In this document: positions 17,923 through 37,600 of the stretch, one piece after another
Position numbering within the stretch: the first letter of the stretch is position 1
Layout of the letters: each line of letters starts with the position of its first letter
Origin: Gemmatimonas sp.
GTDB taxonomy: Bacteria > Gemmatimonadota > Gemmatimonadetes > Longimicrobiales > Longimicrobiaceae
Length of the DNA stretch: 41,397 nucleotides
Direction of reading: 5' to 3'
Assembly (NCBI GenBank): GCA_009380025.1
Contig: WHSP01000022.1
Location: forward strand, 1 to 41,397
Made by a program: the position numbers and the translations under genes
The notes under the pieces: generated by a model
Database searches by the model: none
The model's input: only the letters and a program-made list of their open reading frames with translations
What the model was told of the DNA's origin: nothing

Positions 17923-17926
17923 AAGT

Positions 17927-20976: not shown

Positions 20977-23900
20977 CCGGGCGGCCGGCGGGTCGGCTCG
21001 GCATGCCCTCATCAGTGCTCGCTCTCGTTCCGCACTACCGGTGCGAGGAATGGCTGGGCGACTGCCTGGAATCCCTGCTGTCGCAAACCCGACCTCCGCA
21101 GGGAATCGCTGTCATCGACGATTGTTCGGAGGTTCCTCCGCTGGAGATCGTGCGCCGGTTCCCGGGTGTGACGCTGCTGAAGGCCGATCGGAACGTGGGC
21201 CCGTATCGCCTGATCCAGGGGGTGATCGATCGCACGGACCACGATGCGTACCTCTTCAACGATGCAGACGATTGGTCAGCCAGGGAGCGACTCGAGGTGC
21301 TGCTGGAGGCGGCCGCGCGGACCGGGGCGGAGTTGATCGGAAGCCAGGAGGTGCGGGTTCTGTGCAATGTCGGCGAGGCGATTCCGTACGCGTACCCCGA
21401 GGACGTGAACGAGGCCTTGTCGGAACAGCCATGCAGTTTCCCGCTCCTCCACCCGACCAGCCTGATCGCGCGGACCCTGTTGACACGGCTCGGAGGATTC
21501 GCGACGGGGATGCGTTTCAGCGGCGACGCCGAGCTGCTGCGTCGCGCCGGGCACGTAGCTCGGATCGTCAACGTTCCCGAACACCTCTACTTCCGGAGGA
21601 AGCGAGACGGGGCGCTGACGACGGCACCGGAGACCGGTCTGACGTCGCCGGCACGCCGGCAGGTTCAGCAGGTCCTGTGGGACCGGGCACGCCGGAACGC
21701 CGAGCTCGTGCGTGAGGGCGAACGCCCTGACCTGGCTCCCCTCACCGTCGCCGGGTCGATCGCGCTCACGCACCTCTGGGGTCCGCCGTTGTGGGAGCAG
21801 GCAGATTCCACGCGATGCGCCAGCCGTCGTGCCCCGCGGATCAGCACCCGCTCGCTCCGGCCAGGTTCTTCGAAGAACGACGACCCCGTGACGGCGAAGG
21901 GACGACCGGTCTTCGTGCTCGGCCCATCCCGCTCGGGCACGGCGCTGTTGACGTGGTGCCTGGCGCAGCATCCGTCCTTCGCGGCCGCTCCAATCGCTGC
22001 CTGGGCAGGCAAGCTCGCGCTTCACGTCCAGGACCTTCTGGAGAGCGGGCTCGAGCTACCGAGCTCGGGTCGGTTCGAAGCCCGCCGGAATGAGCTCGAG
22101 GTCTGGGCCAAGTTCGCAGGGGCGCTCGATCGGCTCGGCTCGGACGCATCGGGTCTGCGGTGGGTAGACGGAACGCCGGAGAACGCCTTCCACGCCTACG
22201 GTCTGCTCCGGCTCTTCCCCGGGGCCCGGTTCATCCACGTGGTTCGGGACGTTGCCACCGTGGTCGATTCCCTCGCCCACCTGGCTGCCTCGGACGGCTC
22301 CTACTACACCGAAGAGACCGCCGCCGAGTGCTGGTTGCGCACCACACGCGCGGCCGTCACGGCGGAGCGAGCGTTGGGGTCGCGCACCGTTCTACGCGTG
22401 CGCCATTCCGACCTCGTCCGGGACTCGGAGGCGACCATCCGGCGCTGTCTGGCCCACCTCGACGAGGAATTCGCCGCGGCGTGCCTCCGCCCGTTGCGGC
22501 AGATGTCCCAGGGTGGGTTGCCGAGTGTTCCGGTCAGCGGCGGATCCGGCATTCGGCTGGAGGCGGAGCGGTTGAGTGACGAGCTGCTGAGGGAGGCAGA
22601 GCCGAAGTATCCGGGAAGTCGGGAGGAGCTCGACGACCTGGCCAGGCAGTACCGGGCTCGCAGCGGCCGCGGGAATGTCGAGTTCGCGGAAGAGGCAGCG
22701 GTGCGGCGGGTAAGGGAGATTGCTCGCGCCACGATTCCGATCGAAGCCACGGTGCTGGTCGTCAGCCGCGGGGACGAGGAACTGCTGGATCTCGGCGGAG
22801 CCCGTGGCTGGCATTTTCCGCAGACGGACGACGGCACGTACGCCGGCTACCACCCGGGTGATAGCGCGGAGGCGATCACGCAGCTCGAGCGGTTACGAGA
22901 GCGCGGCGCTGAGTTCCTCCTATTGCCGTGTACCGGGTTCTGGTGGCTCGACCATTACACCGAGTTGCGCGCGCACCTCGAACGGGTGGGTCGTGTCGCG
23001 GCCTACCAGGAAAATGCCTGTATCATCTTCGCGCTCACGCCCGTAGACGGCGCGCGGTCGCCCGGTCCCAGACTGACGATCGGGGGCGTCAACGGTAGCC
23101 GGCGTGATGGGCGACGGCCTGAAGGCTGGGACGGTAATGCGGCCGATAGGATCGTGTGTGCTCTCGACGTCCGCCTTCGCTCCTTTCGGGAGGTGCTCGA
23201 CGATGCGCGCCACCTCGGGCCGCCGGCCGTGGCTTCACCCCCGCCATCCGCCGTGGCCCTGTCACATCGTCGGCCCTCAGACTCCGAACCCGGCGGGCCG
23301 CCAGGATCGGGAGGCGACCGCCGCGATACCTCCACTTCCAGTGCGATCAGGGCGCTGATCCGTGAGGGCTATCGGCTGCGCCGAGAGGGGGATCTCAGCG
23401 CGGCGCTGCAACGCTTTGAGCGGGCAGTCGCCGTTTCGCCCGACCACGAACGTGCCCGACGCGGCCGGGACACTGTCGCCGGCGAGATTGCCGTCCTGCG
23501 CGATGGGTGGTGGGACGATGACGACCAGGTGGAGGAGATCGAGCCAGCCCCGGGAAGGATTTTGCACCTCGTCGGGCGTTCGCTACCGGGCGCGCAGACC
23601 GGATACGCGATCCGAACGCACTATGTTGCGTCCGCCCAGCGCTCTGCGGGGCTGGACCCCCACGTGGTCACCCAGCTTCAGACGGCCACCGAAGGGGAGG
23701 AAGTCGTTGCTCTCGAGTTCATCGACGGTATCGCCTATCACCGCCTCGTAGCGCCGTCGTCGATCCCGGTCGGACTCCCGGACCGACTGTCGGCGAACGT
23801 TGATGCCCTTACCTCCCTCGTCCGACGGCTGCGCCCCGCCGTGCTCCACGCCGCGACGGACTACCGGAACGCTCTGGTCGCTCTGGCTCTCGGAAAGCGA

Positions 23901-24824
23901 TTCAACCTCCCTGTCGTGTATGAGGTGCGGGGATTCTGGGAAGAAACTCGATTGGTCAGGCAGGGCGATGGGGCGGAGGAGAGGGACAGCTACCGCTGGC
24001 ATCGAAGGCGGGAGATCGCCTGTGCGGAAGCGGCGGACCTCGTGGTCACGCTTTCGAACGGGATGAGGAGTCACCTGGTGGAGGAGGGAGTGGGGGCCGA
24101 ACGAATCCAGGTCATCCCGAACGCGGTCGACCCGGAGGTGGTGACGCCGGGGCCGAAAAGAGGGGAACTAGCGCGGCATCTGGGAATCGGCGCCGATGAG
24201 GTGGTCGTCGGGTACGTGTCGAGCTTTGAGCCGTACGAAGGGATCCACATCCTCCTCGAGGCAATCGCGCAGCTGCGCGGGCGGGGCCATCGAGTGAAAG
24301 GGCTACTGGTAGGGGATGGGGAGATACGGGGCGAGCTCGAGGCGCTGGCTGCGGCGCTGGGAATCTCGGAGCAGGTGATCTTCGTGGGGCGGGTCCCGCA
24401 TGGCGAGATCCCGCGCTACTACCGCCTGATCGACGTTTTCGTCGTTCCGCGGACGGCCGACCGGGTATGCCAGCTGGTGACTCCGCTGAAGCCGTACGAG
24501 GCGATGGCCGCCGGGTGCGCAGTGGTTGTCGCTAGGGTGTCGGCACTGCAGGAGATGGTACAGCAGGGAGTTACGGGTCTCGTCTTTCCGCCGGGAGATT
24601 CCACGGCTCTAACCGGTGTGGTCGAGCCGCTGATCGAGGATGCCGGATACCGTCAGGCGCTTGGTTTGGCGGCGTGGGCGTGGGTCTGCCGTCACCGGAC
24701 GTGGCGCCAGAACGGCGAACGCTACGTAGAGCTGTACCGATCGCTCGAGGGAGACTCGTCTGCCAGCCCAGGAACCGAGGGTGAAGCCGGTGCGTCCGGC
24801 CCCTCCGCACTTAGCTTCTCATGA
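20973..24824 (+). CDS. GT2 - sulfotransferase - domain X - GT4 fusion
   Basis: A 1283-residue multidomain protein. Residues 10-250 are a GT2 domain (VPHYRCEEWL, VIDDCSE, LFNDADDW). Residues about 309-560 are a sulfotransferase with the PAPS-binding VFVLGPSRSGTALL and the 3'-phosphate motif FIHVVRDVATVVDS. Residues about 575-690 are the recurrent domain X (VLVVSRGDEELL, HFPQ, YAGYHP, FWWLDHY). Residues 789-845 look like a TPR-type helical pair (GDLSAALQRFERAVAVSPDH). Residues 861-1265 are a GT4 GT-B domain with GYAIRTHYV, VIPNAVDP, GYVSSFEPYEG and KPYEAMAAGCAVV. It should add two sugars and a sulfate to one glycan in the cytoplasm. GTG 20973 is supported by GGAGGT six bases upstream. ATG 21003 is the alternative. 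The low-complexity linkers look genuine, not frameshifted. Confidence 0.83.
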   Translation: MTGRPAGRLGMPSSVLALVPHYRCEEWLGDCLESLLSQTRPPQGIAVIDDCSEVPPLEIVRRFPGVTLLKADRNVGPYRLIQGVIDRTDHDAYLFNDADDWSARERLEVLLEAAARTGAELIGSQEVRVLCNVGEAIPYAYPEDVNEALSEQPCSFPLLHPTSLIARTLLTRLGGFATGMRFSGDAELLRRAGHVARIVNVPEHLYFRRKRDGALTTAPETGLTSPARRQVQQVLWDRARRNAELVREGERPDLAPLTVAGSIALTHLWGPPLWEQADSTRCASRRAPRISTRSLRPGSSKNDDPVTAKGRPVFVLGPSRSGTALLTWCLAQHPSFAAAPIAAWAGKLALHVQDLLESGLELPSSGRFEARRNELEVWAKFAGALDRLGSDASGLRWVDGTPENAFHAYGLLRLFPGARFIHVVRDVATVVDSLAHLAASDGSYYTEETAAECWLRTTRAAVTAERALGSRTVLRVRHSDLVRDSEATIRRCLAHLDEEFAAACLRPLRQMSQGGLPSVPVSGGSGIRLEAERLSDELLREAEPKYPGSREELDDLARQYRARSGRGNVEFAEEAAVRRVREIARATIPIEATVLVVSRGDEELLDLGGARGWHFPQTDDGTYAGYHPGDSAEAITQLERLRERGAEFLLLPCTGFWWLDHYTELRAHLERVGRVAAYQENACIIFALTPVDGARSPGPRLTIGGVNGSRRDGRRPEGWDGNAADRIVCALDVRLRSFREVLDDARHLGPPAVASPPPSAVALSHRRPSDSEPGGPPGSGGDRRDTSTSSAIRALIREGYRLRREGDLSAALQRFERAVAVSPDHERARRGRDTVAGEIAVLRDGWWDDDDQVEEIEPAPGRILHLVGRSLPGAQTGYAIRTHYVASAQRSAGLDPHVVTQLQTATEGEEVVALEFIDGIAYHRLVAPSSIPVGLPDRLSANVDALTSLVRRLRPAVLHAATDYRNALVALALGKRFNLPVVYEVRGFWEETRLVRQGDGAEERDSYRWHRRREIACAEAADLVVTLSNGMRSHLVEEGVGAERIQVIPNAVDPEVVTPGPKRGELARHLGIGADEVVVGYVSSFEPYEGIHILLEAIAQLRGRGHRVKGLLVGDGEIRGELEALAAALGISEQVIFVGRVPHGEIPRYYRLIDVFVVPRTADRVCQLVTPLKPYEAMAAGCAVVVARVSALQEMVQQGVTGLVFPPGDSTALTGVVEPLIEDAGYRQALGLAAWAWVCRHRTWRQNGERYVELYRSLEGDSSASPGTEGEAGASGPSALSFS

Positions 24825-27800
24825 ATTGCGACCGAATTTACGAACACTACCACGGCGATCCATCCAGTGCCACGACGAAGCGGTGCAGGGAACGGATCCA
24901 CTGGATGTGCGGGCAGGTAGAAGGCGAGCGCGTACTCGATATCGGCTGCAGTCAAGGCATCGCCTGCATGATTCTTGGCCGTGAGGGCTTCGATTGTGTG
25001 GGCGTGGATCTCGAGCAGACCTCCATCGAGTTCGCCGCGAAGGTCCGTGACGAGGAGGAGGGCGTACGTGGCAGAATCGACCTCAGCCTGGCCAGTGCCG
25101 GCGCGCTTCCTTTTGCGGACGGCTCGTTCGATACGGTAATCCTCGGCGAGATTCTGGAGCATCTGACCCAGCCTGGCCGGGTCCTCAAAGAGGCGAGCCG
25201 GGTGCTCAAAGCGGGGGGCAAGGCGATCGTCACCGTTCCGTATGGCTTGAAGCCCCACCCGGACCACAAGCGGATCTTCTACGCGAGCTCGCTGCTCGAG
25301 ACACTGCAGCCATATTTCCAGACGACCATCATCGAGCCGCGCGATCACTACCTGCTCTATTCCGGAGTCAAGCCCGACGAGCCACGGACTGACGGCGCCG
25401 GGCCGGTGGGCGTAGCGGATCTGCTTCGCCTCCAGCGGGACCTCGAACAGCGGTGCCTCGCGAAGGAGATGGCCCTGCACCAGAAGAGCGGCCGGGTGAG
25501 CCGGAAGGCGCACTCACTGTCCGAGCAGGTCGACACGCTGCAGGCGTCGGTGGAGGAGCGCGATAAGGCGCTCGAGGAAGCAGAATCGGAGCTGAAGGCG
25601 CTCGCGGCCCGCACGTCCGCCGAATCAGAGCGTCTGGAGAACGAGCTCCGAGAGGAACGCGAAGCGAACGCCCGTGCCTTGGAGGAGAAAGAAGAAGAGA
25701 TCCGAGAGGTCGTTGCCGAGCGGGAACGGGAGACAGAGGCACGGGTCGCGACGCTCGAGGCCGACTATCGCGAGGTGCTGGCGACGGAGCGGGAGGAGCA
25801 CGTCCGAGTGCTGGCGGGGAAGGAGGAGGAACGGCGACAAGTACTCGCCGATCAGGAGAGGGAGGCGGAACGACGCATCGCTGTGCTCGAGGCAGACCAC
25901 CGGGCTGCGCTGGCCGCAAGCGAACGCGCAGCCGAAGCCGAGCGAATCCGCCGCGAGGTCGATGAGGAAGGAAGGGCGAGGGAGCGTCGCCTAAGGCTCG
26001 CGACCAGGGAGGAGACAGTACGGAAAGAGGACGACGCGACCGCAGAGATGGCGCTGGGAGAGGCCGACGGTGTCGACGGGGAGCTCGCCGCGGACATCGG
26101 TGCCGTGGGAGCGACGCTTCGGGAGCTGGAGAAGCGGCTCAAGCGTCGGCTCAAGAGCCGAGCTGGTGACCGACGCGAGGCCCGGGAGGAGCAGAGACGC
26201 GACCGGATCGAGCGGATCCGAAAGGTCGTGCGCACCGAGCTACCGGAAGGGAGCTCCATCCTCGTGGTCAGTCGAGGCGATGATGAGATGCTTCACTTCG
26301 ACGGTCGTCGCAGTGAACACTTCCCGCAGGAGGCGGGCGGAGAGTATGCAGGCCACCATCCCGCCAACGACGCTGAGGCGATCGGCCATCTCAACGACCT
26401 GGTACGACGGGGGGCGGCGGACTACCTGCTGATTCCAAGCAGCGCCTACTGGTGGCTCGAGCACTACCGCGAATTCCGGGACCACCTGGAACGCAGCCAT
26501 CCAGCCGTCGCCTTCGAGGAGCAGGCGTGTTTGATCTTCGACCTACGCCCCAAGGATGCCTCGACGCCTGGGCGAGAGAATGAACGAAAGCGCCCCGCGG
26601 CCACACCGCCAGCGACTTCGCAATCCCCCCGGTCGGTACGCGCCCGCCCACTGACGACGACCGCGCCATTCACGAACGGCAACGGGAAATCGGCTTCCGT
26701 TCCGGTCCTGGCTGTCGCGCCACCTTCCTCGAACGGCACCCCCGCCGGGAAGGGAACCGTGATCGCCGGGGTGCTCGATGAGTTCACGACCGATTGTCTG
26801 CGTCCCGAGTGCAGGCTCATCACCTTTCGCCCCGACAACTGGCGGGAAGTCCTGGAACCGGATCGACCGCGGGCGGTGTTCGTCGAATCGGCGTGGCGGG
26901 GAAACAGCGGGTCGTGGCAGTACCGCGTGGCGAGCTACGGACGCAACGTCGGCGACGAGCTCAACCACCTCGTAGAATGGGCCCGAGAGCAGCAGATTCC
27001 GTCCATCTTCTGGAACAAAGAGGACCCCGTACACTTCGACCGCTTTGTGGAACAGGCGAGTCTGTTCGATATCGTCTTCACGAGTGACATCGATTGCATC
27101 CCGGCGTACCGGGAGCGGCTGGGCCACGATCGGGTCTTCGCGCTGCCCTTCGCCGCTCAGCCGGCAATCCACAATCCGATCCTCGAATCGCGCCGAGATG
27201 GGCGTGTTTGCTTCGCCGGCACGTACTACGGTGACCGTCACGAAAAGCGTCGGACGGACATGGAGCACGTCCTCAAACCGGCACTCGATTTCGGTCTGGA
27301 TATCTACGACCGCCAGCACGGACTGGCCGGACGGCAGGCCGAGCTCTACCGCTTCCCCGACATCTATCGCCCGCATATCCGGGGGCGCCTGGACTACGAC
27401 GAAATGGTCCGCGCCTACAAACGCTACCGGGTCTTCCTGAACGTCAACTCGGTCAGCGACTCCTCGACGATGTTCTCGCGCCGCGTCTTCGAGCTCCTGG
27501 CTAGCGGGACGCCCATCATCAGCACGTATTCCCGGGGAATCGCGGAGATGCTGGGCGAGGATGCGGTCTTTTTCACAGAAAGCGTAGAAGACACCCGGAG
27601 GCACCTGGAGGCTCTGCTCTCCGACACCGACGTCTGGGACAGGGCGTCCGTGCGAGGAATCCGCAGGGTGATGATGGATCACACCTACGAATCTCGACTG
27701 GGATACGTCCTGGAGAAGGCGGGAGTCGATTCCCCTGTGGCAGCGCTGCCGCACTTCGCCATCGTCGCGGCGATCGATACGCCGGAGTGCACGGAAAGAC

Positions 27801-28357
27801 TCCTGGACTGGCTCCAAAACCAGGCGTATCGCGACTTCGATCTCCTCCTGGTCGGTGATGCACAGCCCGACGCTGAGGCGGTCCTGAAGCTGGACCGCGC
27901 GTTGGGCGGGAGAAAGGTGGTGCCGATCCTCCGGCACCCCGGCGAGCTGAGCGCCCGGTGCCTGCAGGCGTCAGACGCAGAGTATTTCGCTTTCCTCCAC
28001 TCGCGGGATCATTACGGTCCCAACTATCTACAGGACTACGCCCTCGCGATCAGGTACTCAGGTGCCTCGCTGTTGGGCAAGGCGGCGTTCAGCCGGCTCA
28101 CCTTTGGAGGAAACTCGAAAGTGGTGCGGCTGGGCGGGGACTATCGGTACGTGAGCGAGGTTGCCGCGGGAACGCTCGTGGCACACCGGAGCCGGATGTC
28201 GGGGGACCTTTTCCGGGCCGCGCTCGAAGCGGATGTCGTCCGGCGACCCATCCCGGAGGTGCTGTCGATCGATCGATTCAACTATCTACAGAGCCCCCGC
28301 GGCGTCGTGGGGAACCGGGTCAACAGACTCGAGTTGGCGGGCGGCATAGAGGTTTGA
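24821..28357 (+). CDS. Methyltransferase - coiled coil - domain X - CgeB-like GT - GT-A-like fusion
   Basis: An 1178-residue protein. Residues 1-190 are a class I SAM methyltransferase (VLDIGCSQGI, ALPFADGSFDTVILGEILEHL). Residues about 205-470 are a nearly continuous, highly charged coiled coil rich in Glu and Arg. Domain X follows at about 468-580 (ILVVSRGDDEML, HFPQ, YAGHHP, YWWLEHY). After a Pro/Thr/Ser linker, residues about 646-972 form a CgeB/YkvP-type glycosyltransferase (FWNKEDP, CFAGTYYGDRH, RRVFELLASGTPIIS). The last 200 residues have a GT-A-like fold pattern (IVAAIDTPECTERLL) with a degraded DxD region. The start overlaps the previous stop (ATGA). A methyltransferase tied to a long coiled coil recalls the WbdD chain-length ruler, although the domain order and kinase differ. 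Confidence 0.82.
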   Translation: MNCDRIYEHYHGDPSSATTKRCRERIHWMCGQVEGERVLDIGCSQGIACMILGREGFDCVGVDLEQTSIEFAAKVRDEEEGVRGRIDLSLASAGALPFADGSFDTVILGEILEHLTQPGRVLKEASRVLKAGGKAIVTVPYGLKPHPDHKRIFYASSLLETLQPYFQTTIIEPRDHYLLYSGVKPDEPRTDGAGPVGVADLLRLQRDLEQRCLAKEMALHQKSGRVSRKAHSLSEQVDTLQASVEERDKALEEAESELKALAARTSAESERLENELREEREANARALEEKEEEIREVVAERERETEARVATLEADYREVLATEREEHVRVLAGKEEERRQVLADQEREAERRIAVLEADHRAALAASERAAEAERIRREVDEEGRARERRLRLATREETVRKEDDATAEMALGEADGVDGELAADIGAVGATLRELEKRLKRRLKSRAGDRREAREEQRRDRIERIRKVVRTELPEGSSILVVSRGDDEMLHFDGRRSEHFPQEAGGEYAGHHPANDAEAIGHLNDLVRRGAADYLLIPSSAYWWLEHYREFRDHLERSHPAVAFEEQACLIFDLRPKDASTPGRENERKRPAATPPATSQSPRSVRARPLTTTAPFTNGNGKSASVPVLAVAPPSSNGTPAGKGTVIAGVLDEFTTDCLRPECRLITFRPDNWREVLEPDRPRAVFVESAWRGNSGSWQYRVASYGRNVGDELNHLVEWAREQQIPSIFWNKEDPVHFDRFVEQASLFDIVFTSDIDCIPAYRERLGHDRVFALPFAAQPAIHNPILESRRDGRVCFAGTYYGDRHEKRRTDMEHVLKPALDFGLDIYDRQHGLAGRQAELYRFPDIYRPHIRGRLDYDEMVRAYKRYRVFLNVNSVSDSSTMFSRRVFELLASGTPIISTYSRGIAEMLGEDAVFFTESVEDTRRHLEALLSDTDVWDRASVRGIRRVMMDHTYESRLGYVLEKAGVDSPVAALPHFAIVAAIDTPECTERLLDWLQNQAYRDFDLLLVGDAQPDAEAVLKLDRALGGRKVVPILRHPGELSARCLQASDAEYFAFLHSRDHYGPNYLQDYALAIRYSGASLLGKAAFSRLTFGGNSKVVRLGGDYRYVSEVAAGTLVAHRSRMSGDLFRAALEADVVRRPIPEVLSIDRFNYLQSPRGVVGNRVNRLELAGGIEV

Positions 28358-28359
28358 CG

Positions 28360-30540
28360 ATGCCGCGAGTCCTTCTCTACGCCGAAGTGGATCTCAACCT
28401 GATCGATGGCTCGTCGATCTGGCTCGTCTCGCTGACCGAGGTGCTGGCGGGCGCGTCCGATGTCGAAATCACGATCCTGCAAAGGACCCGCCTGGAGCGC
28501 GACGTCGTCGTCGAGAGGACACGTACTCTCCCGAATGTGACCTACCTCGACCCCTGGGAGCTGGCGGCAACGGACCGGGAGATCGCGCAGATCCTTTCCG
28601 CCAACGGGGGCTCTCGGCTCCGGCCGGCGGTCGCTGCCGAGCTCATTGGGATCCTCGATCGTGGGCGCCCTTTCTCGTGGCTGATCGTTCGCGGCCTCGA
28701 CGTCGCCGAGCTCCTTGCCCGACAGCCCGGGCTCGGCGCGCGAATGTGGGCATACGTGACGGACCCGAAGCGGCATACGAGCCAGGTCGACGTGGCCAGG
28801 CTCCGCACGGTGTTCGATGTCAGTGCGCACCTCCTCTGCCAGACGCAGGAGGCACGAGACGCGTTCGTGGATCTCCTACAGTGCAGGGACACGAGCAAGC
28901 TCTTCGTTCTCCCGCCGATGATTCCGGAGCCCAACGGGATCCGTCGCCCACCGCTCGATCCGCGTGCACCGAGACTCGGATACTCCGGCAAGCTTGCGCC
29001 CGGTTACATGATCCTCGAAATGCTGGACGCGTTCGAGCGGATCCGGGAGAGCGTTCCGGGCGCTGAGTTTCACGTCGTCGGGGACAAGATCCACAACGCG
29101 CCCCCGGTGCCGGGGTTCGTCGAGACGCTCGCGAATCGGCTCAAGTGGACGTCCGGCGTGGTGTGGCACGGCGGAACGACCCGCGAGCAGGCTCACGAGA
29201 TCCTGGGCGGTGGACATGTCGCCGCGTCGTGGCGCGCTCCGATCTTCGACGACAGCCTCGAGATGTCGACGAAGGTCCTCGAGTATGCTTCTCTCGGGAT
29301 GCCGGTTCTGATGAACCCGAGCCTGGTCCAGCGGAGGATCTTCGGAGACGACTATCCTGCCTACGTACGCAGTGGCGACGAGTTCGTCGAACGGTTCCTG
29401 GGGCTGGTCAGGTCGCCGGAACGTTATTCGGACGCATCTCGCCACGTCGCAGACGTCGCCGGCGAGTACACCTTTCCGAGAGCCCTGCAGCGCCTGCAGC
29501 CGTTGCTGACGTCGGCCGAGCCACCCATGGTCCGACCCACGCGAACGAGCCTCCTCTTCGCTGGCCACGACTTCAAGTTCCTCGGCCCGCTGCTCAGTCA
29601 CGTCGCCGGAAACGAGCAGTACGACGTGCTACGGGACGAATACTCCGGCCACTCGATCGCCGACCCAGCACGGAGCGAGTCGCTTCTACGCGATGCGAAG
29701 GTCGTCTTCTGCGAATGGTGTCTCGGCAACGCCGAGTGGTACTCGAAGCACAAAAGGGACGACCAGAAGCTCGTGATTCGCTTCCATCTCCAGGAGCTGG
29801 ATACACCCTACGCCGCGAGGGTTTGCTGGGAGAACGTAGATCGCGTCGTGTTCATCTGCCCCTTGGTTCGGGATCGATTCCTCGAGCGGTTTCCACAGGT
29901 GGCAGACCGGGCTGCGCTGATCTACAACCTCATCGATGCCGCCCCCCTGGACCAGCCGAAGCTGGCCCGTTCGGAATTCAACCTCGGGCTCCTTGGTTCC
30001 TGCCCGCGCCGGAAGGCGCCGCACCTCGCCGTGGAGATCCTCGAGAGGCTGAAGCAGCACGACCGGCGTTACACGCTGTTCTTCAAGGGAAAGCGGCCCG
30101 AGGAATTCGGATGGCTCTGGAGGCGCCCCGAGGAGCGCGAGTACTACGACCGCCTCAACCGATGCCTGGCCGAATCCCCCTACGCCGATTCGGTGGTTTT
30201 CGAGCCGCACGGCGACGATGTGTCGGCGTGGTTCAGCCGCATCGGATTCATCCTCTCCACGAGCGACTTCGAGGGCTCGCACCAGGCAGTAGCAGAAGGG
30301 ATGGCGGCGGGCTGCATTCCGGTGATCCGCAATTGGGCTGGGGCGGATGCCATCTATCCGGGCCGCTTCGTATTCAGCTCGGTGGATGAAGCGGTTGAAC
30401 GGATTATCGGCTGGCGAAAGCCTGGCGTCTATCTGGAGCAGAGCCAGAACTGCCGATCGTACGCGCGCCAACACTTCGACCAGACCGTGATCACTCGCCA
30501 GTACGACGAATTGTTCAGCCAGCTACTGGAGGCTGCCTGA
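28360..30540 (+). CDS. Tandem GT-B (GT4-like) glycosyltransferase
   Basis: A 726-residue protein made of two GT-B units. The first (about 1-385) has LGYSGKLAPGYMILEMLDAFE and STKVLEYASLGMPVLM at its donor-binding end. The second (about 390-726) begins with LLFAGHDFKFLGPLL. It has YNLIDAAPL, a domain opening with LGLLGSCPRRKAPHLAVEIL and the donor block SHQAVAEGMAAGCIPVI. Bifunctional transfer of two sugars is likely. It starts two bases after the preceding stop, and its TGA overlaps the next ATG (TGATG). No membrane segment is seen. Confidence 0.8.
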   Translation: MPRVLLYAEVDLNLIDGSSIWLVSLTEVLAGASDVEITILQRTRLERDVVVERTRTLPNVTYLDPWELAATDREIAQILSANGGSRLRPAVAAELIGILDRGRPFSWLIVRGLDVAELLARQPGLGARMWAYVTDPKRHTSQVDVARLRTVFDVSAHLLCQTQEARDAFVDLLQCRDTSKLFVLPPMIPEPNGIRRPPLDPRAPRLGYSGKLAPGYMILEMLDAFERIRESVPGAEFHVVGDKIHNAPPVPGFVETLANRLKWTSGVVWHGGTTREQAHEILGGGHVAASWRAPIFDDSLEMSTKVLEYASLGMPVLMNPSLVQRRIFGDDYPAYVRSGDEFVERFLGLVRSPERYSDASRHVADVAGEYTFPRALQRLQPLLTSAEPPMVRPTRTSLLFAGHDFKFLGPLLSHVAGNEQYDVLRDEYSGHSIADPARSESLLRDAKVVFCEWCLGNAEWYSKHKRDDQKLVIRFHLQELDTPYAARVCWENVDRVVFICPLVRDRFLERFPQVADRAALIYNLIDAAPLDQPKLARSEFNLGLLGSCPRRKAPHLAVEILERLKQHDRRYTLFFKGKRPEEFGWLWRRPEEREYYDRLNRCLAESPYADSVVFEPHGDDVSAWFSRIGFILSTSDFEGSHQAVAEGMAAGCIPVIRNWAGADAIYPGRFVFSSVDEAVERIIGWRKPGVYLEQSQNCRSYARQHFDQTVITRQYDELFSQLLEAA

Positions 30541-32273
30541 TGAGCGTCGAGACGTATGACAACGCAGTCATCGAGCGGATTCGCACCCTCGGGCGCCCTC
30601 CGTACAGGGCCGTGGTGAAGAGAACGTACGACGAGAGCCGGAAGGCGGAGGCGCTCGCGGACACGTTCCGCGTCTTTCAGAAGAGCCTCCGCCTCGTTCC
30701 GCCGATCGACTGGCGGCAAGACCCGGCCGGCAGTCGGTCTTCGCGGTACGAGTTGCATACGCTGCAGCTGCTCGATGTGCTCTTCCACCTGTACCTGGTG
30801 GACGGCAGTCTCGGAGCGCTCGACCGGGCGCGCTCCATCGGGATCGATTGGATCCGGGCCAATGCTCCCGATGAGCCGAGGGTGAGCGAGTTCGCTTGGT
30901 ACGACATGGCCGTTGGCCTACGTGCGCCCTACCTCGCCTTCCTGCTCCGGGCGTCCGTACACGAGGGGAGGATCGAGCCGACCGAGGCTGCTCTGCTACT
31001 CACCTCCCTGCGGAGCCATGGCGAGTACCTGGTGGACGGTGCGAACTACGCCCACGGACACAACCATGGTCTCTTTCAGGACGAAGGCCTCTTCCTGATC
31101 GCCGATTACCTGCCATGGCTGGCCGAGGCCGATGAGTGGCGGGAGGTCGCCTCACGTCGAGCGATCGAGACACTGCGGGCGACGATCAACGAGACCGAGG
31201 CTGTCCACCTCGAGCACTCGCCTGCGTACCATTTGGTCATCGTCAATCTGGTCCGTCGACTCCGCCACCAGACCGAGGTCGGGGGCGCCGAACTGGATGA
31301 CCTGTTGCGGCGACTGGAAGAGACCGCCGCCTGGTTCGTGATGCCGGACGGCACGCTCCCAGAGCTCGGTGATACCGATCAGGTCGCTGCGCCGGCGTGG
31401 GTGCTGGACCGCATCCCGGGTGATACCTCGGGATGTCGGCTCTTTTCGGAGTCGGGATACGCGGTGGTTCGGACCCCCGAGTCGTACCTGATCGCAACCG
31501 CGGGATACCACGGATCCGGCCACAAGCACGCCGACGAGCTGAGCTTCGTGCTCTACGAAGCAGGGCGACGAATCGTCGGCGACAGTGGCCGCTACGGCTA
31601 CTACGAATCCGATCCCCACCGTGTCTATGCGCGCTCGAGCCATGCTCACAACGTGCTCGTGGTGGATGATCAGAGCTTTGGGTGGAAAGGCGCGACACCG
31701 TACGGGAGCGGCATCCTGGCCGGCGGAGAGGATGGAGGGTGGTTCGGCATCGTGGGGGAGAACCCGCTGCTGCGCGCGCAGTCCGTCGAGCATGTTCGGC
31801 TCTTTCTGTACCGACCGGCTCACGCGTTGGTGATCGTGGACGATGTCCGCTCCGATGCAGACCACGAATACATGAGGCTGCTGCACTTCGGCGTAGGCCT
31901 CGAGCTCGATGCGGCGGGCGATCTGTTGCACCTTCGCGCCCCCGGATTTGCCGGCGCCCTGCACGCCTGGGCGATCGATGGGGGAAGCTCCCGCCGGCTC
32001 CGCCGGGGATCCGAGCAGCCCGATCTGCGAGGATGGAGCTACTCCGGCGATCGGCAACGGCGCGAGGTCACGACAGTGGAGTTCGCCGACCGGGGCCGCG
32101 ACGGCGTCTACGCTCTGGCCCTCTCCCTCCAGGACTCGCCGATGCGCGTCCGATTAGCCGCAAACGAGGCGGACGAGTATCGAATCGTCGTCGACTTCGA
32201 CGGCCGTATCTACCAGCTGACCGCCAGACTCGGCGGCGGGGTGCTCCAAGTGAACGAGAGAGAGATAGCATGA
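30540..32273 (+). CDS. Heparinase II/III-like enzyme, cytoplasmic
   Basis: A 577-residue protein of the heparinase II/III superfamily. An alpha/alpha-toroid N-terminal half carries HGHNHG (about residues 171-176) and HSPAYH (about 225-230). The linking segment has LGDTDQ. The beta-sandwich half begins near SGHKHADELSF (about 326) with GDSGRYGYYE after it. These His and Tyr residues match the usual catalytic regions of uronate-polymer lyases. Family members are normally secreted, but no signal peptide is present here. It may act on the nascent glycan inside the cell (editing, trimming, or an epimerase-like variant of lyase chemistry). Its location among sulfotransferases suggests that the product contains uronic acid. 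It is translationally coupled on both sides. Confidence 0.82.
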   Translation: MSVETYDNAVIERIRTLGRPPYRAVVKRTYDESRKAEALADTFRVFQKSLRLVPPIDWRQDPAGSRSSRYELHTLQLLDVLFHLYLVDGSLGALDRARSIGIDWIRANAPDEPRVSEFAWYDMAVGLRAPYLAFLLRASVHEGRIEPTEAALLLTSLRSHGEYLVDGANYAHGHNHGLFQDEGLFLIADYLPWLAEADEWREVASRRAIETLRATINETEAVHLEHSPAYHLVIVNLVRRLRHQTEVGGAELDDLLRRLEETAAWFVMPDGTLPELGDTDQVAAPAWVLDRIPGDTSGCRLFSESGYAVVRTPESYLIATAGYHGSGHKHADELSFVLYEAGRRIVGDSGRYGYYESDPHRVYARSSHAHNVLVVDDQSFGWKGATPYGSGILAGGEDGGWFGIVGENPLLRAQSVEHVRLFLYRPAHALVIVDDVRSDADHEYMRLLHFGVGLELDAAGDLLHLRAPGFAGALHAWAIDGGSSRRLRRGSEQPDLRGWSYSGDRQRREVTTVEFADRGRDGVYALALSLQDSPMRVRLAANEADEYRIVVDFDGRIYQLTARLGGGVLQVNEREIA

Positions 32274-33472
32274 CGACTGGCCAGGCGTCCGGTACCGCGA
32301 CGACGGCTTCCCGCCGCTCGCTGCGCGAGGTTGCGTTCGATTCACTGAAGGGGCTGTTCGCCGTTGGCGATGTCACATGCGATTGCGCGGCCAGAGCGGT
32401 GCATGGGCTTCTCTTTAGCGAGCCCGTCCCGGCGGAGTACGCCTGGGCCGGGACGATCGAGCGACTGCGGGCGGATCTGGAGTCGTCGTCGGAGGCGGTA
32501 TCGATCGCCTTGCCCTACGCGGGTGCGAAGGAGCGATTCAGCACAGTCGGTGAAATCTGCCGACGGCGCAGCAAGGGGCGGATCTGGGGCCTACTGCTGC
32601 ACAGGCTGGTTCGCGGGTTCGCCCCGTCAACGGCGCTCGAGTTAGGCACCTGCCTGGGGGTATCGACCTCATATCAGGCAGCGGCGATGAAGCTGAATGG
32701 ACGCGGGCGACTGATTTCCCTCGAGGGCGCCGCTGCGCTGGCCGACCAGGCACGAAAGAATCTGCGGAAGCTCTGCCTGGATTGTGTCGAGGTGCGCACG
32801 GGGTTGTTCCAGCACACCCTCGAGCCCGCTCTCCGGGACCTCGGCTCCATTGACTTCGCCTTCATCGACGGCCACCACGACGAAGAAGCGACCCTCGCCT
32901 ACTTCGAAATGGTCGTCCCATTTCTCGCCCATCGAGCGATCCTCGTCTTCGACGACATCGCCTGGTCGGACGGGATGCGCCGCGCATGGGCCAGGCTTCG
33001 GGCCGACCCCCGCGTTCGCGTGACCCTCGATCTGTCGATCATCGGCATCTGCATCCTCGGCCGGGATCTGCCGAAACAGGACTTCGACTTTCCGTCGCTG
33101 TCGAGAGTGCAGGCCGCTCAGGTCGTCCCGCATATTCGCCGTGCCGTCCGCGGTCGGCTGCCGGTCGATGCGCCCGTGCTCGTCGTGAGCCGCGGCGATG
33201 ACGAACTGCTGGAGCTGGTCAGCCGCCGAGCGCAGCATTTCCCACAGACGAATGATGGGGCTTACGCAGGCCACCATCCGGGCGACAGCCGGGATGCCAT
33301 CGACCACCTCGAGCGTCTGCGAGAAGGCGGCGCCGAGTACCTCGTGTTTCCGTCGACGGCCTTTTGGTGGTTCGAGTTCTACTCGGACTTCCGCAGACAC
33401 CTCGAGCTGCACTCCCTGTCGGTCCATCAGGACGAAGACTGCGCGATCTTCCAGCTCTCGGGGGCACGATGA
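32270..33472 (+). CDS. Class I SAM methyltransferase fused to domain X
   Basis: A 400-residue protein. Residues about 100-270 are a methyltransferase of the Methyltransf_24 type: ALELGTCLGVSTSYQAA, LISLEG, DFAFIDGHHDEEATLAYF and ILVFDDIAW. Residues about 293-398 are domain X (VLVVSRGDDELL, HFPQ, YAGHHPGDS, FWWFEFY, CAIFQL), which forms the very C-terminus. It probably O-methylates a sugar or uronate of the glycan. ATGA overlap with the heparinase-like gene. It is the last gene of the first tightly packed block. Confidence 0.83.
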   Translation: MTTGQASGTATTASRRSLREVAFDSLKGLFAVGDVTCDCAARAVHGLLFSEPVPAEYAWAGTIERLRADLESSSEAVSIALPYAGAKERFSTVGEICRRRSKGRIWGLLLHRLVRGFAPSTALELGTCLGVSTSYQAAAMKLNGRGRLISLEGAAALADQARKNLRKLCLDCVEVRTGLFQHTLEPALRDLGSIDFAFIDGHHDEEATLAYFEMVVPFLAHRAILVFDDIAWSDGMRRAWARLRADPRVRVTLDLSIIGICILGRDLPKQDFDFPSLSRVQAAQVVPHIRRAVRGRLPVDAPVLVVSRGDDELLELVSRRAQHFPQTNDGAYAGHHPGDSRDAIDHLERLREGGAEYLVFPSTAFWWFEFYSDFRRHLELHSLSVHQDEDCAIFQLSGAR

Positions 33473-33759: not shown

Positions 33760-35217
33760 ATGAAGCGTAGCGCTTCTCGTAAGGGTCGTGAACTGTTCCG
33801 GTCGTACGTGCGAGACATCGACGAATTCTGGCCCGGGGTGCAGGGCATCCAGGCCGACAAGGTTCGCTCGATGATCGAACAGGTGACGGGGATATTCGGT
33901 CACGGCGTAACCGAAGTCGTTACGCAGATCGAGGGGTGGGCAGAGGCACGGTTCGGGAATCGGCCGCCCCCGGTTTACGTCAGCGGACTCGGCGGCTCGG
34001 GTACGAACTGGCTCGCCGCAATGCTCGGCGATCTGGACGGATTCGCGTATGCGGGAGAGGTGTACTTCGCCCCGCGGCTGCTCGAGCGCATGCGTGAGCT
34101 GCCGGTTCAGGATCGGGGATACGTCGTCGACTGCATCCACCTGCTGCATGCGTGGCCCCGCCACGGAAATCCCGCCGGCGCGCGGATCATCAACGCGGCT
34201 TCGCGGGCGTTCGAGGCGGCCGACCAGAGAATGTGGGATCCCGACTGTGCGATCGTTTACCTGGTCCGCGATCCACGGGACCAGGTTCTCTCCGTCACGC
34301 TCCGGAAGCCCGAATATCGTCAGCGCCACGGAGCCGGGCTCTCGGACCTCGAGTACCTGGCGTCCCGAGCGGGATCCAACCGGACGAGCTTCGAGAAGTT
34401 CCGGTGCTTCGCCTCGGACTTCATGTGCAGGTATGAGGAGCTCCGCGACGAATCACGGGCAGTCTTCGAACGGCTCCTGGCGCAGATCGGCGCCGATCCG
34501 TCTCCACAGTCGGTGACCGAAGCGCTTTTCCGCCACGATGCCTCAAAGATGAGGAGCGGAGCGACGCCGCGGCGGGGTAACCTCGATCAGGGAGGACGGT
34601 CGCGGGGTTGGCGAGTCGATGCCACGCCGCAGCAGAAGAGCATTCTGCACGCCGAGCTGGTGGAGGTGATCTCGGGTCTCGAATACGATGCGGACGACTG
34701 CATGGGCGCCCGGCCGGACTTCGAAGCGCTTCCCCCGGTTCGCGAGATTTCCTTCCCGACGGACCATGCCGTAGGCGAGTTGCAGGTGCGGGATCTCCGC
34801 GAAGCCGAGGAACCGTGGATGAGCCGCGGTGCGGCGCAGGGCGGAGTGACGATCCCCGAAGGCGTGGCGGTGCGTCTCCGCGTCGACCGTGGGTTCGACC
34901 CAAAGAACCTTCGTGGCCTTCGCCTCCAACCGGGTGACGTCCAGTCGCTCTGTCTCGCGGGCAACACCCGAGTCACCGACGCAACTCTGCGGGCGGTGGC
35001 CCAGATCCCCGGGCTTCGGGAACTGGACCTTGCCCGCACGCGCGTCACCGCCGCAGGACTCCCGCACCTCGAGGCGATGACGGAGCTATGGGGGATCAAC
35101 CTGTGGAAGACGCGGATCACGGCGGTCGAAGCAGCCCAGCTGCAGACAATGCTGCCGTTAGCGACCGTGGTCGGCCTTCCGGAGGCGCTCGACCCCGCCG
35201 CAGTGCCCGTCTGTTGA
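33760..35217 (+). CDS. Sulfotransferase with C-terminal leucine-rich repeats
   Basis: A 485-residue protein. The sulfotransferase part (about residues 70-320) has the PAPS-binding VYVSGLGGSGTNWLAAML (about 73) and the 3'-phosphate motif AIVYLVRDPRDQVLS (about 165). A linker follows, and then leucine-rich repeats near 377-480, for example GLRELDLARTRVTAAGLPHL and LWGINLWKTRITAVEA. The LRR tail is unusual for a bacterial sulfotransferase and may bind a partner enzyme. With the sulfotransferase domain in the 1283-residue fusion, the cluster encodes two sulfation activities. No PAPS-synthesis genes are in the window. A triplicated ribosome-binding repeat precedes it. Confidence 0.8.
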   Translation: MKRSASRKGRELFRSYVRDIDEFWPGVQGIQADKVRSMIEQVTGIFGHGVTEVVTQIEGWAEARFGNRPPPVYVSGLGGSGTNWLAAMLGDLDGFAYAGEVYFAPRLLERMRELPVQDRGYVVDCIHLLHAWPRHGNPAGARIINAASRAFEAADQRMWDPDCAIVYLVRDPRDQVLSVTLRKPEYRQRHGAGLSDLEYLASRAGSNRTSFEKFRCFASDFMCRYEELRDESRAVFERLLAQIGADPSPQSVTEALFRHDASKMRSGATPRRGNLDQGGRSRGWRVDATPQQKSILHAELVEVISGLEYDADDCMGARPDFEALPPVREISFPTDHAVGELQVRDLREAEEPWMSRGAAQGGVTIPEGVAVRLRVDRGFDPKNLRGLRLQPGDVQSLCLAGNTRVTDATLRAVAQIPGLRELDLARTRVTAAGLPHLEAMTELWGINLWKTRITAVEAAQLQTMLPLATVVGLPEALDPAAVPVC

Positions 35218-35223
35218 CCGGCT

Positions 35224-36417
35224 ATGCGAAGGAACGCAGTGAACACCAGGCCGAGTGGAATGAGGAATCGCATCGTCATCGCAGGTTCCCTGGCGCAACG
35301 GCCAGGAAAGGGGGGGCACGCCTGGGTGTTCTTGCAGTACTTGCTCGGATTCCAGCGGCTGGGGTGGGACGTTCTGTTCCTCGATCGCCTCGAACCCGAG
35401 ATGTGCTACGACGCGTCGGGCGAGCCCGCGCCGCTCGAGCGGTCCGAGAACCTGCACTATCTCCTTCGAGTGATCGGGGCGTACGGCCTGGAGGATTCGT
35501 TCGCGGTGCTGGATGGGCAGGGGCGTTCGGTCGGGCTCTCGAAGGCGCATGTAATCGCGCAGGTTCGAGAGTCCGCGCTTCTCATCAACGTGATGGGATT
35601 CCTCCAGGACCCGGAGATCCTCGATGCGGCCCCGACTCGCGTCTTCCTCGACATCGATCCTGGCTTTCCGCAGATGTGGCAGGATCTCGGTCTCGCCAGA
35701 CCGTTGAGCGGGCACGACCGCTACGTGACGATTGGCGAGAACATCGGTCGGCCGGACTGCACCATCCCGACCTGCGGGATCGACTGGATCACGACTCCTC
35801 AACCCGTGGTCCTCGACGAATGGAGGACCGGCGAGTCTACACCATGGACCGGCTTCGCGGGAGTCGGCGCCTGGAGGGGCCCCTTCGCGCCGATCGAGTA
35901 CCGAGGTGCCACATACGGGCTCAGGGTGCACGAGTTCCGCAACTTCTTCGACCTGCCCCGCGCCACCCGGGAGACCTTTACGATAGCGCTCGACATCGAT
36001 CCGGCGGATGCGAGGGACATCAAGGCGCTCCACTCCGCCGGCTGGTCGGTCGTGAAGCCCCAGGTCGTGGTGGCCGAGCCCTGGACATACCGCGAGTTCA
36101 TCCATCGCTCGTCCGCGGAGTTCATGGTGGCGAAAGGCATGTACGTGAGGTCCAACAGTGGCTGGTTCAGCGACCGGAGCATTTGTTTCCTGGCTTCTGG
36201 GCGGCCGGTCCTCGCCCAGGAAACGGGGTTCAGCCGCCAGCTCCCGGTGGGGAACGGGTTGATCGCGTTCTCGACGCTGGAGGAAGCGGCGGACGGTGCA
36301 GCCGCAATCGCCGCCGACCCACGCCGCCACGGTCGTGCGGCGCTGTCGGTTGCGCGCGAGCATTTCGACTCGGATCGGGTGCTGACAGGTATGCTCGAAA
36401 AGCTGGGGGTCGCGTGA
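35224..36417 (+). CDS. GT-B-like glycosyltransferase, paralogue B
   Basis: A 397-residue member of the same family as the 19795 gene. It has RIVIAGSLAQ, GGHAWVFLQYLLGFQRLG, FLDIDPGFPQMWQ, TIGENIGRPDC and the donor-end block GWFSDRSICFLASGRPVLAQ, then GFSRQLPVGNGL. It is the first of three adjacent paralogues. Start alternatives: ATG 35224 lacks a clear ribosome-binding site, GTG 35239 has AAGGA five bases upstream, and ATG 35260 is also in frame. The gene begins six bases after the sulfotransferase stop. The sugar is unknown. Confidence 0.74.
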   Translation: MRRNAVNTRPSGMRNRIVIAGSLAQRPGKGGHAWVFLQYLLGFQRLGWDVLFLDRLEPEMCYDASGEPAPLERSENLHYLLRVIGAYGLEDSFAVLDGQGRSVGLSKAHVIAQVRESALLINVMGFLQDPEILDAAPTRVFLDIDPGFPQMWQDLGLARPLSGHDRYVTIGENIGRPDCTIPTCGIDWITTPQPVVLDEWRTGESTPWTGFAGVGAWRGPFAPIEYRGATYGLRVHEFRNFFDLPRATRETFTIALDIDPADARDIKALHSAGWSVVKPQVVVAEPWTYREFIHRSSAEFMVAKGMYVRSNSGWFSDRSICFLASGRPVLAQETGFSRQLPVGNGLIAFSTLEEAADGAAAIAADPRRHGRAALSVAREHFDSDRVLTGMLEKLGVA

Positions 36418-36437
36418 TGTCGAGGGCCGTCCGATGA
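36417..36437 (+). other. Six-codon mini-ORF bridging paralogues B and C
   Basis: ATG 36417 overlaps the stop of paralogue B (TGATG) and opens a six-codon frame, MSRAVR. Its stop at 36435-36437 overlaps the ATG of paralogue C (ATGA). It could relay ribosomes across the 16-base gap. It may be coincidence, because GAGGG upstream of 36434 would serve paralogue C alone. Confidence 0.25.
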
Positions 36438-37600
36438 GCTCGCCGCCCATCGTCGTGGTCGCCGGAGCGATCGCCAACAAGTGCCACAACGGCGGCGAGG
36501 CCTGGGTGCGCCTCAGCTGGACGCTCGGCTTCCGCAAGCTCGGATGCACCGTCTTTCTACTGGAGCAAATCGATCCCGACGCGTGTGTGGATGTGGCGGG
36601 AGCTCCGGCTCCGTTCGAGGAGTCGGCGAACCTCGCCTTCTTCCGGGATATCACTCGGCGGTTCGGCCTGGAAGGGTCGGCCGCTCTCCTCTGCGGAGAA
36701 GAAGCCGGGTATGGGCCCGAGATGGCCGAGTTGGTCGACATCGTGGGGTCGGCAGACCTGTTCGTGAACATCAGCGGAAACGTCACAGCGGCAGTGCTGT
36801 TGGAGCGCGCACGGCGCACGGCCTACGTCGATATCGATCCTGGATTTACGCAGTTCTGGAACACCGCACAGCTCGAGGGCGGTACGACCGCCCGGCACGA
36901 TCACTACTTCACTATCGGCGAGAACATCGGGAGTCCGGATTGCCCGATCCCGAGCGGAGGGATCGAGTGGCGACCGATTCGACAGCCGGCGCTGCTGGAC
37001 GAGTGGCCGCTGTGCCCGGGGAGCCTGGACCGGTTTACCACCGTCGCCAACTGGCGCGGCCCCTACGCGGCGATCGAGTACGAGGGCCGGACCTATGGCG
37101 TGAAGGTCCACGAGTTCCGGAAGGTCTTCCCACTGCCGCAGCGGGTACCGTGGACATTCGAGCTGGCCCTCAACATCCATCCCGCGGACGGCCGCGACCT
37201 GGATTCGCTCCACGCCCACGGATGGCGCACCGTCGATCCGCGCCCGATCAGCGGCGATCCCGATGCGTTTCGGCACTACATCCAGACTTCGGGCGCCGAG
37301 TTCTCGGTGGCGCAGGGCGTCTACGTGGGGACGGAAAGTGGCTGGTTTAGCGACCGGACCGTGCGTTACCTCGCCTCGGGCAAGCCGGCTCTGGTGCAGG
37401 AGACCGGATTCAGCCAGCACCTTCCTTCGGGCGAGGGGCTCCTTTCCTTCCGCACCCTGGATGAGGCGGTCGACGGGGCGGCGCGAATCGCACGCGACTA
37501 CGACGGGCACTGTCAGGCCGCCCGTGCGATCGCCGAGGAGTACTTCGATTCCGACAAGGTTCTCGCCCGGATGCTGGAGGAGACCGGTGTCAGCCACTGA
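36434..37600 (+). CDS. GT-B-like glycosyltransferase, paralogue C
   Basis: A 388-residue family member. Conserved blocks are IVVVAGAI, GGEAWVRLSWTLGFRKLG, AYVDIDPGFTQFWN, TIGENIGSPDC, TTVANWRGPY, and GWFSDRTVRYLASGKPALVQETGF followed by GEGLLSF. By eye it is close to paralogues B and D. GAGGG lies eight bases before ATG 36434. Its 3' end overlaps paralogue D by 14 bases. Retention of the donor-end block suggests an active enzyme. Specificity cannot be read from sequence. Confidence 0.74.
   Translation: MSSPPIVVVAGAIANKCHNGGEAWVRLSWTLGFRKLGCTVFLLEQIDPDACVDVAGAPAPFEESANLAFFRDITRRFGLEGSAALLCGEEAGYGPEMAELVDIVGSADLFVNISGNVTAAVLLERARRTAYVDIDPGFTQFWNTAQLEGGTTARHDHYFTIGENIGSPDCPIPSGGIEWRPIRQPALLDEWPLCPGSLDRFTTVANWRGPYAAIEYEGRTYGVKVHEFRKVFPLPQRVPWTFELALNIHPADGRDLDSLHAHGWRTVDPRPISGDPDAFRHYIQTSGAEFSVAQGVYVGTESGWFSDRTVRYLASGKPALVQETGFSQHLPSGEGLLSFRTLDEAVDGAARIARDYDGHCQAARAIAEEYFDSDKVLARMLEETGVSH

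Follow-up and report, generated by a model that had tools for sequence, protein, structure and literature searches.

The characterised heparinases III of family PL12 are degradative enzymes from gut or soil bacteria. Here, we describe a heparinase II/III-fold protein, P0001, that is encoded at positions 30540-32273 on the + strand of a 41,397-nucleotide stretch of Gemmatimonas sp. DNA (contig WHSP01000022.1 of assembly GCA_009380025.1; hereafter the window) and is predicted to be cytosolic. The contig ends coincide with the window ends, and the gene context of P0001 is this 41-kb contig. P0001 resembles the PL12 heparinases III (HepC of Pedobacter heparinus, 4mmh; BT4657, 5jmd) in fold and in its Asn-His, Tyr, His, Asp, Tyr and His positions, but shares only ~14-20% identity with them in structural alignments and, unlike these degradative enzymes, has no export signal and lies in an assembly operon. 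Human dermatan sulfate epimerase DS-epi1 likewise has the fold, acts in glycan assembly beside sulfotransferases and, by inference, uses a like catalytic His/Tyr/Tyr set; however, it shares 12% identity with P0001 and resides in the Golgi lumen, and P0001 has an Asn preceding the His. The PL15 enzymes BIexoHep and Atu3025 and the PL21 heparinase II have the fold in common with P0001 (Z 21-23), and BIexoHep also has an Asn-His motif, but they are degradative members of other families for which no full-length sequence similarity to P0001 was found. Alginate enzymes of the AlgL/AlgG type place a uronate lyase or epimerase inside a synthesis system, but they are periplasmic and have other folds. 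The archaeal D-glucuronyl C5-epimerase Agl32 epimerises a uronate in a glycan-assembly cluster ahead of sulfation, but has another fold and active site (PMC13308652).

Our analyses indicate that P0001 probably acts in the cytosol, by uronate-H5 chemistry, on a glycan that is still being assembled and has yet to be exported. The most likely single outcome, which we put forward tentatively, is that it is a C5-epimerase.

Fold and active site of P0001

The P0001 open reading frame (ORF) encodes 577 amino acids from an ATG start, with 0 internal stops, and its GC content at codon positions 1/2/3 (0.71/0.46/0.79) is similar to that of its neighbours. Its Pfam matches, PF07940 (95.5 bits, cut-off 24) and PF16889 (59.2 bits, cut-off 22), are both above the curated cut-offs. 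An AlphaFold model built from six sequences had a mean predicted local distance difference test score (pLDDT) of 77.9 and a predicted template modelling score of 0.81. In a structure search with this model, PL12 heparinase III came first (Z 31.7-32.3; 5jmf, 32.3), followed by PL17 lyases (28.5-24.9). DS-epi1 (6hzn) aligned end to end over 504 residues with a Z of 24.8 and a root-mean-square deviation of 4.3; this Z ties with several lyases, and the fold is common to both and hence not distinctive. A profile of the same six sequences matched heparinase III over its full length (4mmh, E 3.4e-40; 5jmd, E 1e-34), whereas the NCBIfam HepC (heparin-sulfate lyase) equivalog models gave 40.9 and 37.9 bits, below their cut-offs of 600 and 700.

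Relatives were drawn from genome contigs, plasmids and the phylum of P0001. A single-protein scan of genome contigs yielded five loci (two Planctomycetota, two Poseidoniales archaea and one Luteimonas), and the strict subfamily signature EFAWYDMAVG.R (residues 117-128; positions 30888-30923, + strand) is invariant in all six rows formed by P0001 and these loci. A tblastn search of plasmids found 11 records with distant relatives (Haloarcula, Cytobacillus, Nonomuraea, Sinorhizobium, Manganitrophus, Caballeronia, Paracoccus, Leisingera and Bacteroides), to which a second query added Halobellus and Fibrella; plasmid matches H7 (same record as H14), H8, H9, H11, H12 and H20 were left out of the comparison. 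Within the phylum, a profile at 1e-15 matched 42 of 395 genomes, including that of P0001. The 41 other loci all come from a single profile and a single phylum, with many belonging to one clade, and form two sets: 20 loci with fetched flanks, and 21 loci not sorted by export signal, several of which lie at contig ends. The 32-member alignment comprises P0001, the five genome-contig loci, six plasmid loci (L017-L022) and 20 phylum loci; L094-L097 were added later. No close orthologue was found among the 395 genomes: P0001 itself matched with an E of 5.8e-235 and the next match with only 2.8e-45, and we therefore regard the locus as accessory or transferred.

Alignment with heparinase III 4mmh, whose chain positions were counted from the printed alignment, pairs N175, H176, Y230, H328, D348, Y354 and H370 of P0001 with positions 216, 217, 270, 400, 420, 426 and 445. 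On the + strand of the window, these residues fall in the Asn175-His176 pair (31062-31067), the segment from Glu225 to the catalytic-type Tyr230 (31212-31229), the HKHAD motif from His328 to Asp332 (31521-31535), the segment with Asp348 and the second tyrosine, Tyr354 (31581-31601), and His370 (31647-31649). All active-site positions are kept, in line with an earlier note on this DNA, to which the catalytic-type His and Tyr segments appeared intact. Passages of PMC11848413 name Tyr294 as the PL12 acid/base, which corresponds to 4mmh chain position 270 with an offset of 24. Seven residues (R128, E225, Y230, D278, H328, H370 and R420) are identical in all 32 aligned members; position 348 is Asp or Glu in 32/32, and position 354 is Tyr in 29/32. 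His176 is present in 26/26 members without an export signal, compared with 2/6 exported members (Fisher p 0.0004, kinship disregarded), and both of the latter belong to the subfamily of P0001. At position 175, the non-exported members have either Asn (16/26) or Thr (10/26), and all six exported ones have Asn. This conservation pattern, His176 kept and Asn175 replaced by Thr in 10/26, is left as a hint.

The same residues bear on the comparison with DS-epi1, which uses His205, Tyr261 and Tyr473 and whose catalytic residues are conserved in heparinase II, according to the portion of PMC8006597 consulted; that portion also mentions a manganese site (Glu470, Asn481) and proposes that minute changes may convert a lyase into an epimerase. 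In the consulted part of PMC7904915, BIexoHep His337/Tyr390/His555 are matched with heparinase II His202/Tyr257/His406, and in our alignment BIexoHep has an Asn-His motif resembling that of P0001. Because of this motif and the residue matches in the two papers, His176 of P0001 is likely the counterpart of BIexoHep His337, heparinase II His202 and DS-epi1 His205. The candidate equivalents of DS-epi1 His205/Tyr261/His450/Tyr473 would then be H176/Y230/H328/Y354, an assignment plausible by motif and not made by superposition. P0001 also has two tyrosines, like the PL17 lyases, in which two tyrosines serve as base and acid (in the part of PMC12336832 seen). Passages of PMC11848413 further state that active-site residues take on different roles with D-uronates than with L-uronates, and that fold and apparatus are common to DS-epi1 as well. 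We considered the Asn-His pair as an epimerase marker and dropped it, given that the characterised heparinases III 4mmh and 5jmd carry the same pair.

Predicted cytosolic location

Within the first 60 residues, the highest 12-residue hydropathy of P0001 is 0.62, whereas six relatives whose export signal is clear reach 2.06-2.58. The in-frame codons 5' of its ATG fall within the previous gene and encode nothing hydrophobic. The lack of a signal peptide in this heparinase II/III-like protein, which the earlier note had reported, was therefore borne out, and P0001 is predicted to be cytosolic. Export was called on mechanically picked ORFs from a lipobox and a hydropathy threshold of 2.0, chosen after the values were seen, and not with a trained predictor; L025 and L075, both classed as non-exported, reach 1.9. 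By this measure the signal is absent in 26 of the 32 aligned members and present in L023, L024, L062, L063, L065 and L067, an exported comparison group of six members only, three of them in one tight clade.

Within the subfamily of P0001, the planctomycete relatives L023 and L024 are predicted lipoproteins, while L025, L026 and L027 are under the export threshold. In the tree of the 32 members, P0001 pairs with L023 (support 99/99), and the well-supported branches require at least three changes of export label; the predicted location of heparinase II/III-fold members is thus labile across the tree. The lipoprotein signals of L023 and L024 would suit non-classical export or surface binding of P0001, which would then be an ordinary lyase outside the cell, but its own N-terminus is not hydrophobic and L025, L026 and L027 also stay under the threshold, so that we regard this explanation as very unlikely.

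Coupling to glycosyltransferase genes

The reading of P0001 as a cytosolic enzyme acting on a nascent glycan draws on its gene context. The TGA stop of the upstream gene (30538-30540) overlaps the ATG start of the P0001 gene (30540-30542) by 1 nt, and the TGA stop of the P0001 gene (32271-32273) overlaps the ATG start of the next gene (32270-32272) by 4 nt. Upstream lies the gene for a double glycosyltransferase (28360-30540, likely start 28360, + strand; two stretches matching Pfam Glyco_trans_1_4), and downstream that for a methyltransferase (32270-33472, + strand; Methyltransf_24). Both belong to an operon on a single strand (+) that spans ~14.9-39.8 kb. The earlier note had placed P0001 in a biosynthetic operon, coupled by overlaps to transferase genes. 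The first statement is supported; the second holds for one glycosyltransferase and one methyltransferase but not for the sulfotransferases, which are not direct neighbours, their domains starting ~8 kb upstream and 1.5 kb downstream of the P0001 gene.

Of the 30 non-exported members examined (26 aligned and four added), 15 have a glycosyltransferase gene that runs into the start of the heparinase-like gene: the window, L017, L021, L027, L071, L072, L074, L075, L076, L077, L078, L094, L095, L096 and L097. Overlap was scored from the in-frame start closest to the upstream stop, and the true start is unsure for L027, L071, L072, L075 and L076. On the haloarchaeal megaplasmids L094, L095 and L097, a glycosyltransferase family 4 gene overlaps a gene annotated 'alginate lyase family protein' within glycan loci. 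In the other 15 non-exported members, the heparinase-like gene directly follows a different gene or an unassigned ORF, is part of a fusion (L022), or the available sequence is too short; the direct upstream gene encodes a Wzy_C ligase in L061, an acetyltransferase in L069, an AMP-binding protein in L079, an ABC ATPase in L025 and a transposase in L020. No such overlap was seen in the six exported members, although the upstream gene of L063 was not identified (p 0.03; 0.06 without L063). The repeated overlap suggests that the glycosyltransferase and heparinase-fold products act together. A uronate-binding, non-catalytic partner of the glycosyltransferase, for example in chain holding or length control, would fit the conserved overlap, which suggests a complex, and the replacement of Tyr354 in 3/32 members. 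It is nevertheless quite unlikely, since E225, Y230, H328 and H370 are invariant in 32/32 members and binding alone would hardly demand that.

Among 93 neighbour ORFs of 16 non-exported phylum members, 18 matched Glycos_transf_1, 7 the nucleoside-diphosphate-sugar (NDP-sugar) dehydrogenase and 5 asparagine synthase, while the 46 ORFs neighbouring the six exported members gave at most one weak match to each (tallies from the best 25 of 61 and the best 25 of 49 families, respectively). For Glycos_transf_1, the comparison of 18/93 with 1/46 has p 0.004. One GT2 and one UDP-GlcNAc 2-epimerase were found near exported members, both from L024. The window gene at 24821-28357 (+ strand; by Pfam, a methyltransferase joined to a Glyco_trans_1_2/DUF3880 glycosyltransferase) has a C-terminal part with 34-36% identity to genes at the Cytobacillus, Luteimonas and Caballeronia loci. 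The Cytobacillus locus keeps the window's order, with a dehydrogenase, the homologue of this C-terminal part (35%), two glycosyltransferases and the heparinase-like gene; the two genes ahead of the latter are separate counterparts of the halves of the window's double glycosyltransferase (27 and 36%). At the Luteimonas locus, the heparinase-like gene is accompanied by an ABC ATPase-like gene and by genes for a dehydrogenase, a GT4 (34%) and a homologue of the 24821-28357 product (34%). ABC export genes are present in the window, L021 and L025, and by similarity in L027.

Three plasmid loci deserve separate mention. The 34-kb plasmid of Candidatus Manganitrophus (L021, CP114560.1) combines the heparinase-like gene with genes for glycosyltransferases, for two phosphotransferases, for an ABC exporter and for a protein of the alginate-export family. 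By eye, the Sinorhizobium fusion (L022:9122-11434) has ~220 residues resembling a methyltransferase before the heparinase-like domain, and the Caballeronia fusion (L019:11572-14163) has a long extra C-terminal part after it.

A likely uronic-acid and possibly sulfated glycan

An NDP-sugar dehydrogenase gene lies within ~8 kb of the heparinase-like gene at 20 of the 41 phylum loci, where ~0.45 would be expected. It was found in the fetched flanks (<=8 kb) of 9/20 loci of the first set (0.18 expected) and within 8 kb in 11/21 of the second (0.26 expected). These Poisson expectations, and that for sulfotransferases below, assume random gene order, and a few of the counted dehydrogenase and sulfotransferase matches are partial. 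In the first phylum set, the dehydrogenase accompanied 9/16 non-exported and 0/4 exported members (Fisher p 0.09); by similarity search of all 32 members, the figures were 14/26 and 0/6 (p 0.02). Measured against the features of a cytosolic glycan-locus class, P0001 has no export signal and its gene overlaps a glycosyltransferase gene, but it has no nearby NDP-sugar dehydrogenase; two such dehydrogenases are encoded on other contigs of the same genome.

The operon encodes the two sulfotransferases that the earlier note had listed. The first is a 96-bit Sulfotransfer_3 domain (21906-22472) within a trimodular GT2-sulfotransferase-GT4 protein (20973-24824, + strand); the second, sulfotransferase-like protein (33760-35217, + strand) is much weaker, with 30.1 and 26.6 bits, yet above the cut-offs of 27 and 22. 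The genome, which is 97% complete, also encodes APS kinase. At 1e-8, Sulfotransfer_3 gave 16 matches in 10 of 38 genomes, with the four genomes of exported phylum members outside the search. In 2 of the 37 other genomes, a match lay no more than 10 kb from the heparinase-like gene (0.08 expected, p 0.003), 5.9 kb downstream in one (G167) and 8.6 kb in the other (G095), with a dehydrogenase gene between in both. In the second phylum set (21 genomes), no Sulfotransfer_3 match was near the heparinase-like gene. Linkage to a sulfotransferase as a general rule was therefore rejected at 2/37, while a dehydrogenase, a cytosolic heparinase-fold enzyme and a sulfotransferase do recur together, though rarely. 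The sulfated uronic-acid glycan at which the earlier note had hinted thus fares differently in its two parts. A uronic-acid glycan is likely for the class (20/41), with no dehydrogenase in P0001's own contig, and the case for sulfate is modest (APS kinase, 2/37); a sulfated uronic-acid glycan as the product of this operon is plausible.

P0001 could instead catalyse another reaction on a uronate or acidic sugar, for example on a lipid-linked oligosaccharide or a nucleotide-linked sugar. Families of this fold act on several uronates (passages of PMC11848413), but every family member considered acts on a uronate glycan, which makes this unlikely. A degradative locus was rejected: Glyco_hydro_88, which covers GH88/GH105, had no match in the 97%-complete genome, therefore giving no sign of cleavage products used as food, and no degradative neighbours were recognised.

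Proposed function

The reading that we favour joins computed elements (fold, residues, absence of a signal, overlaps and linkage) to an activity, a substrate, a choice of epimerase over lyase and an order of steps that we infer. P0001 would remodel uronic-acid residues of a glycan made by the co-translated glycosyltransferases, with the chain held between its alpha toroid and beta sandwich. Tyr230 would take H5 of the uronate, assisted by His328, Tyr354 and Asn175-His176, and abstraction of H5 from a fresh uronate could lead either to cleavage alongside or to inversion at C5. In the latter case, the proton would be put back on the opposite face, as in dermatan sulfate epimerase. The operon's sulfotransferases may sulfate the glycan before or after epimerisation, and the ABC exporter would then move the finished glycan out. 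In systems with an ABC exporter, chains are generally completed in the cytosol, which would place a chain-modifying enzyme there as well.

The same H5 abstraction could serve the editing of the nascent chain by a uronate lyase in the cytosol, which would trim, end or clear stalled glycan by beta-elimination and leave a 4,5-unsaturated uronate end. This is possible, if doubtful: the best fold and profile matches are PL12 lyases and the complete lyase residue set is kept, but cleavage by an enzyme whose gene overlaps that of its own glycosyltransferase would seem futile in the absence of tight control, Thr replaces the heparinase III Asn in 10/26 non-exported members, and the genome has no unsaturated-uronate hydrolase family, though editing needs none. 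We prefer epimerisation over cleavage, as it would be awkward to couple a cleaving enzyme to its own synthase, as no enzyme for recycling turned up and as every non-exported member retains the His; the data at hand do not separate the two. Of the 'cytoplasmic uronate lyase in a biosynthetic operon' originally proposed, the predicted cytosolic location, the intact residues and the operon stand, with the relatives as the strongest support (26/32 aligned members without an export signal, 20/41 phylum loci close to an NDP-sugar dehydrogenase gene), while lyase and epimerase share one residue set; quality control or release, offered there beside a modified chemistry, becomes one option among several.

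Several observations weigh against an epimerase acting in glycan assembly. The closest structures to P0001 are lyases (PL12, Z ~32), the Asn-His pair also occurs in lyases 4mmh and 5jmd and so is no epimerase mark, and His176 is equated with DS-epi1 His205 by motif and papers, not by superposition. The active-site loops 326-329 and 352-365 of the model have pLDDT <50, and the profile-profile comparison of P0001 with PL15-like proteins covered the C-terminal half only. The 41-kb contig has no NDP-sugar dehydrogenase gene. The nearest tree relative, L023, is a predicted lipoprotein with no glycan genes nearby, and L024, also a predicted lipoprotein, sits among glycan genes, so that signal and context can come apart.

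With these points in mind, we suggest, with considerable reserve, that the widespread cytosolic set of bacteria and archaea may epimerise uronates on nascent glycans before export, as prokaryotic counterparts of DS-epi1 that are co-translated with glycosyltransferases and sometimes accompanied by sulfotransferases. Neither the fold nor the families are new, and in databases such genes carry the label 'alginate lyase' or 'heparinase II/III family'. Among the matches listed from an open-access library, with most subscription papers outside this scope, we found no description of a cytosolic, glycosyltransferase-coupled heparinase-fold set that takes part in assembly, and no paper that assigned such a role to a PL12-type protein; the word 'heparinase' is absent from PMC1847822 and PMC2987987. 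If the class epimerises, it would offer many candidates and a possible tool for iduronate-rich polymers in bacteria, and the logic by which animals build dermatan would also yield dermatan-like sulfated glycans in some bacteria; if it cleaves, it would represent a cytosolic editing step, unexpected in glycan assembly. Either outcome would correct the 'alginate lyase' and 'heparinase' labels on these genes.

Other features of the operon

The remaining operon genes are all on the + strand. The first encodes a fusion of a glycosidase-type TIM barrel (Glyco_hydro_2_C) with a GT2 domain (14953-17922; Pfam), followed by the ABC exporter, with membrane and ATPase domains fused (17864-19798; Pfam). 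Next is a glycosyltransferase-like protein without a Pfam match (19795-20976), with three paralogues downstream (35224-36417, 36434-37600 and, in its later part, 37263-38801; span 35224-38801), which also lack Pfam matches; mutual identity among the four is 33-47%. A weakly phosphotransferase-like protein (38795-39841) scored 23.3 bits, far under the model's cut-off. A scan for promoters and terminators gave nothing above chance.

A domain of ~115 residues occurs once each in the products of 20973-24824, 24821-28357 and 32270-33472, with 49-53% identity and no Pfam match over the domain. By eye, C-terminal leucine-rich repeats are apparent after the sulfotransferase-like domain of 33760-35217. 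Upstream of the operon, positions 10265-11359 encode an LpxR-type outer-membrane protein (180.9 bits).

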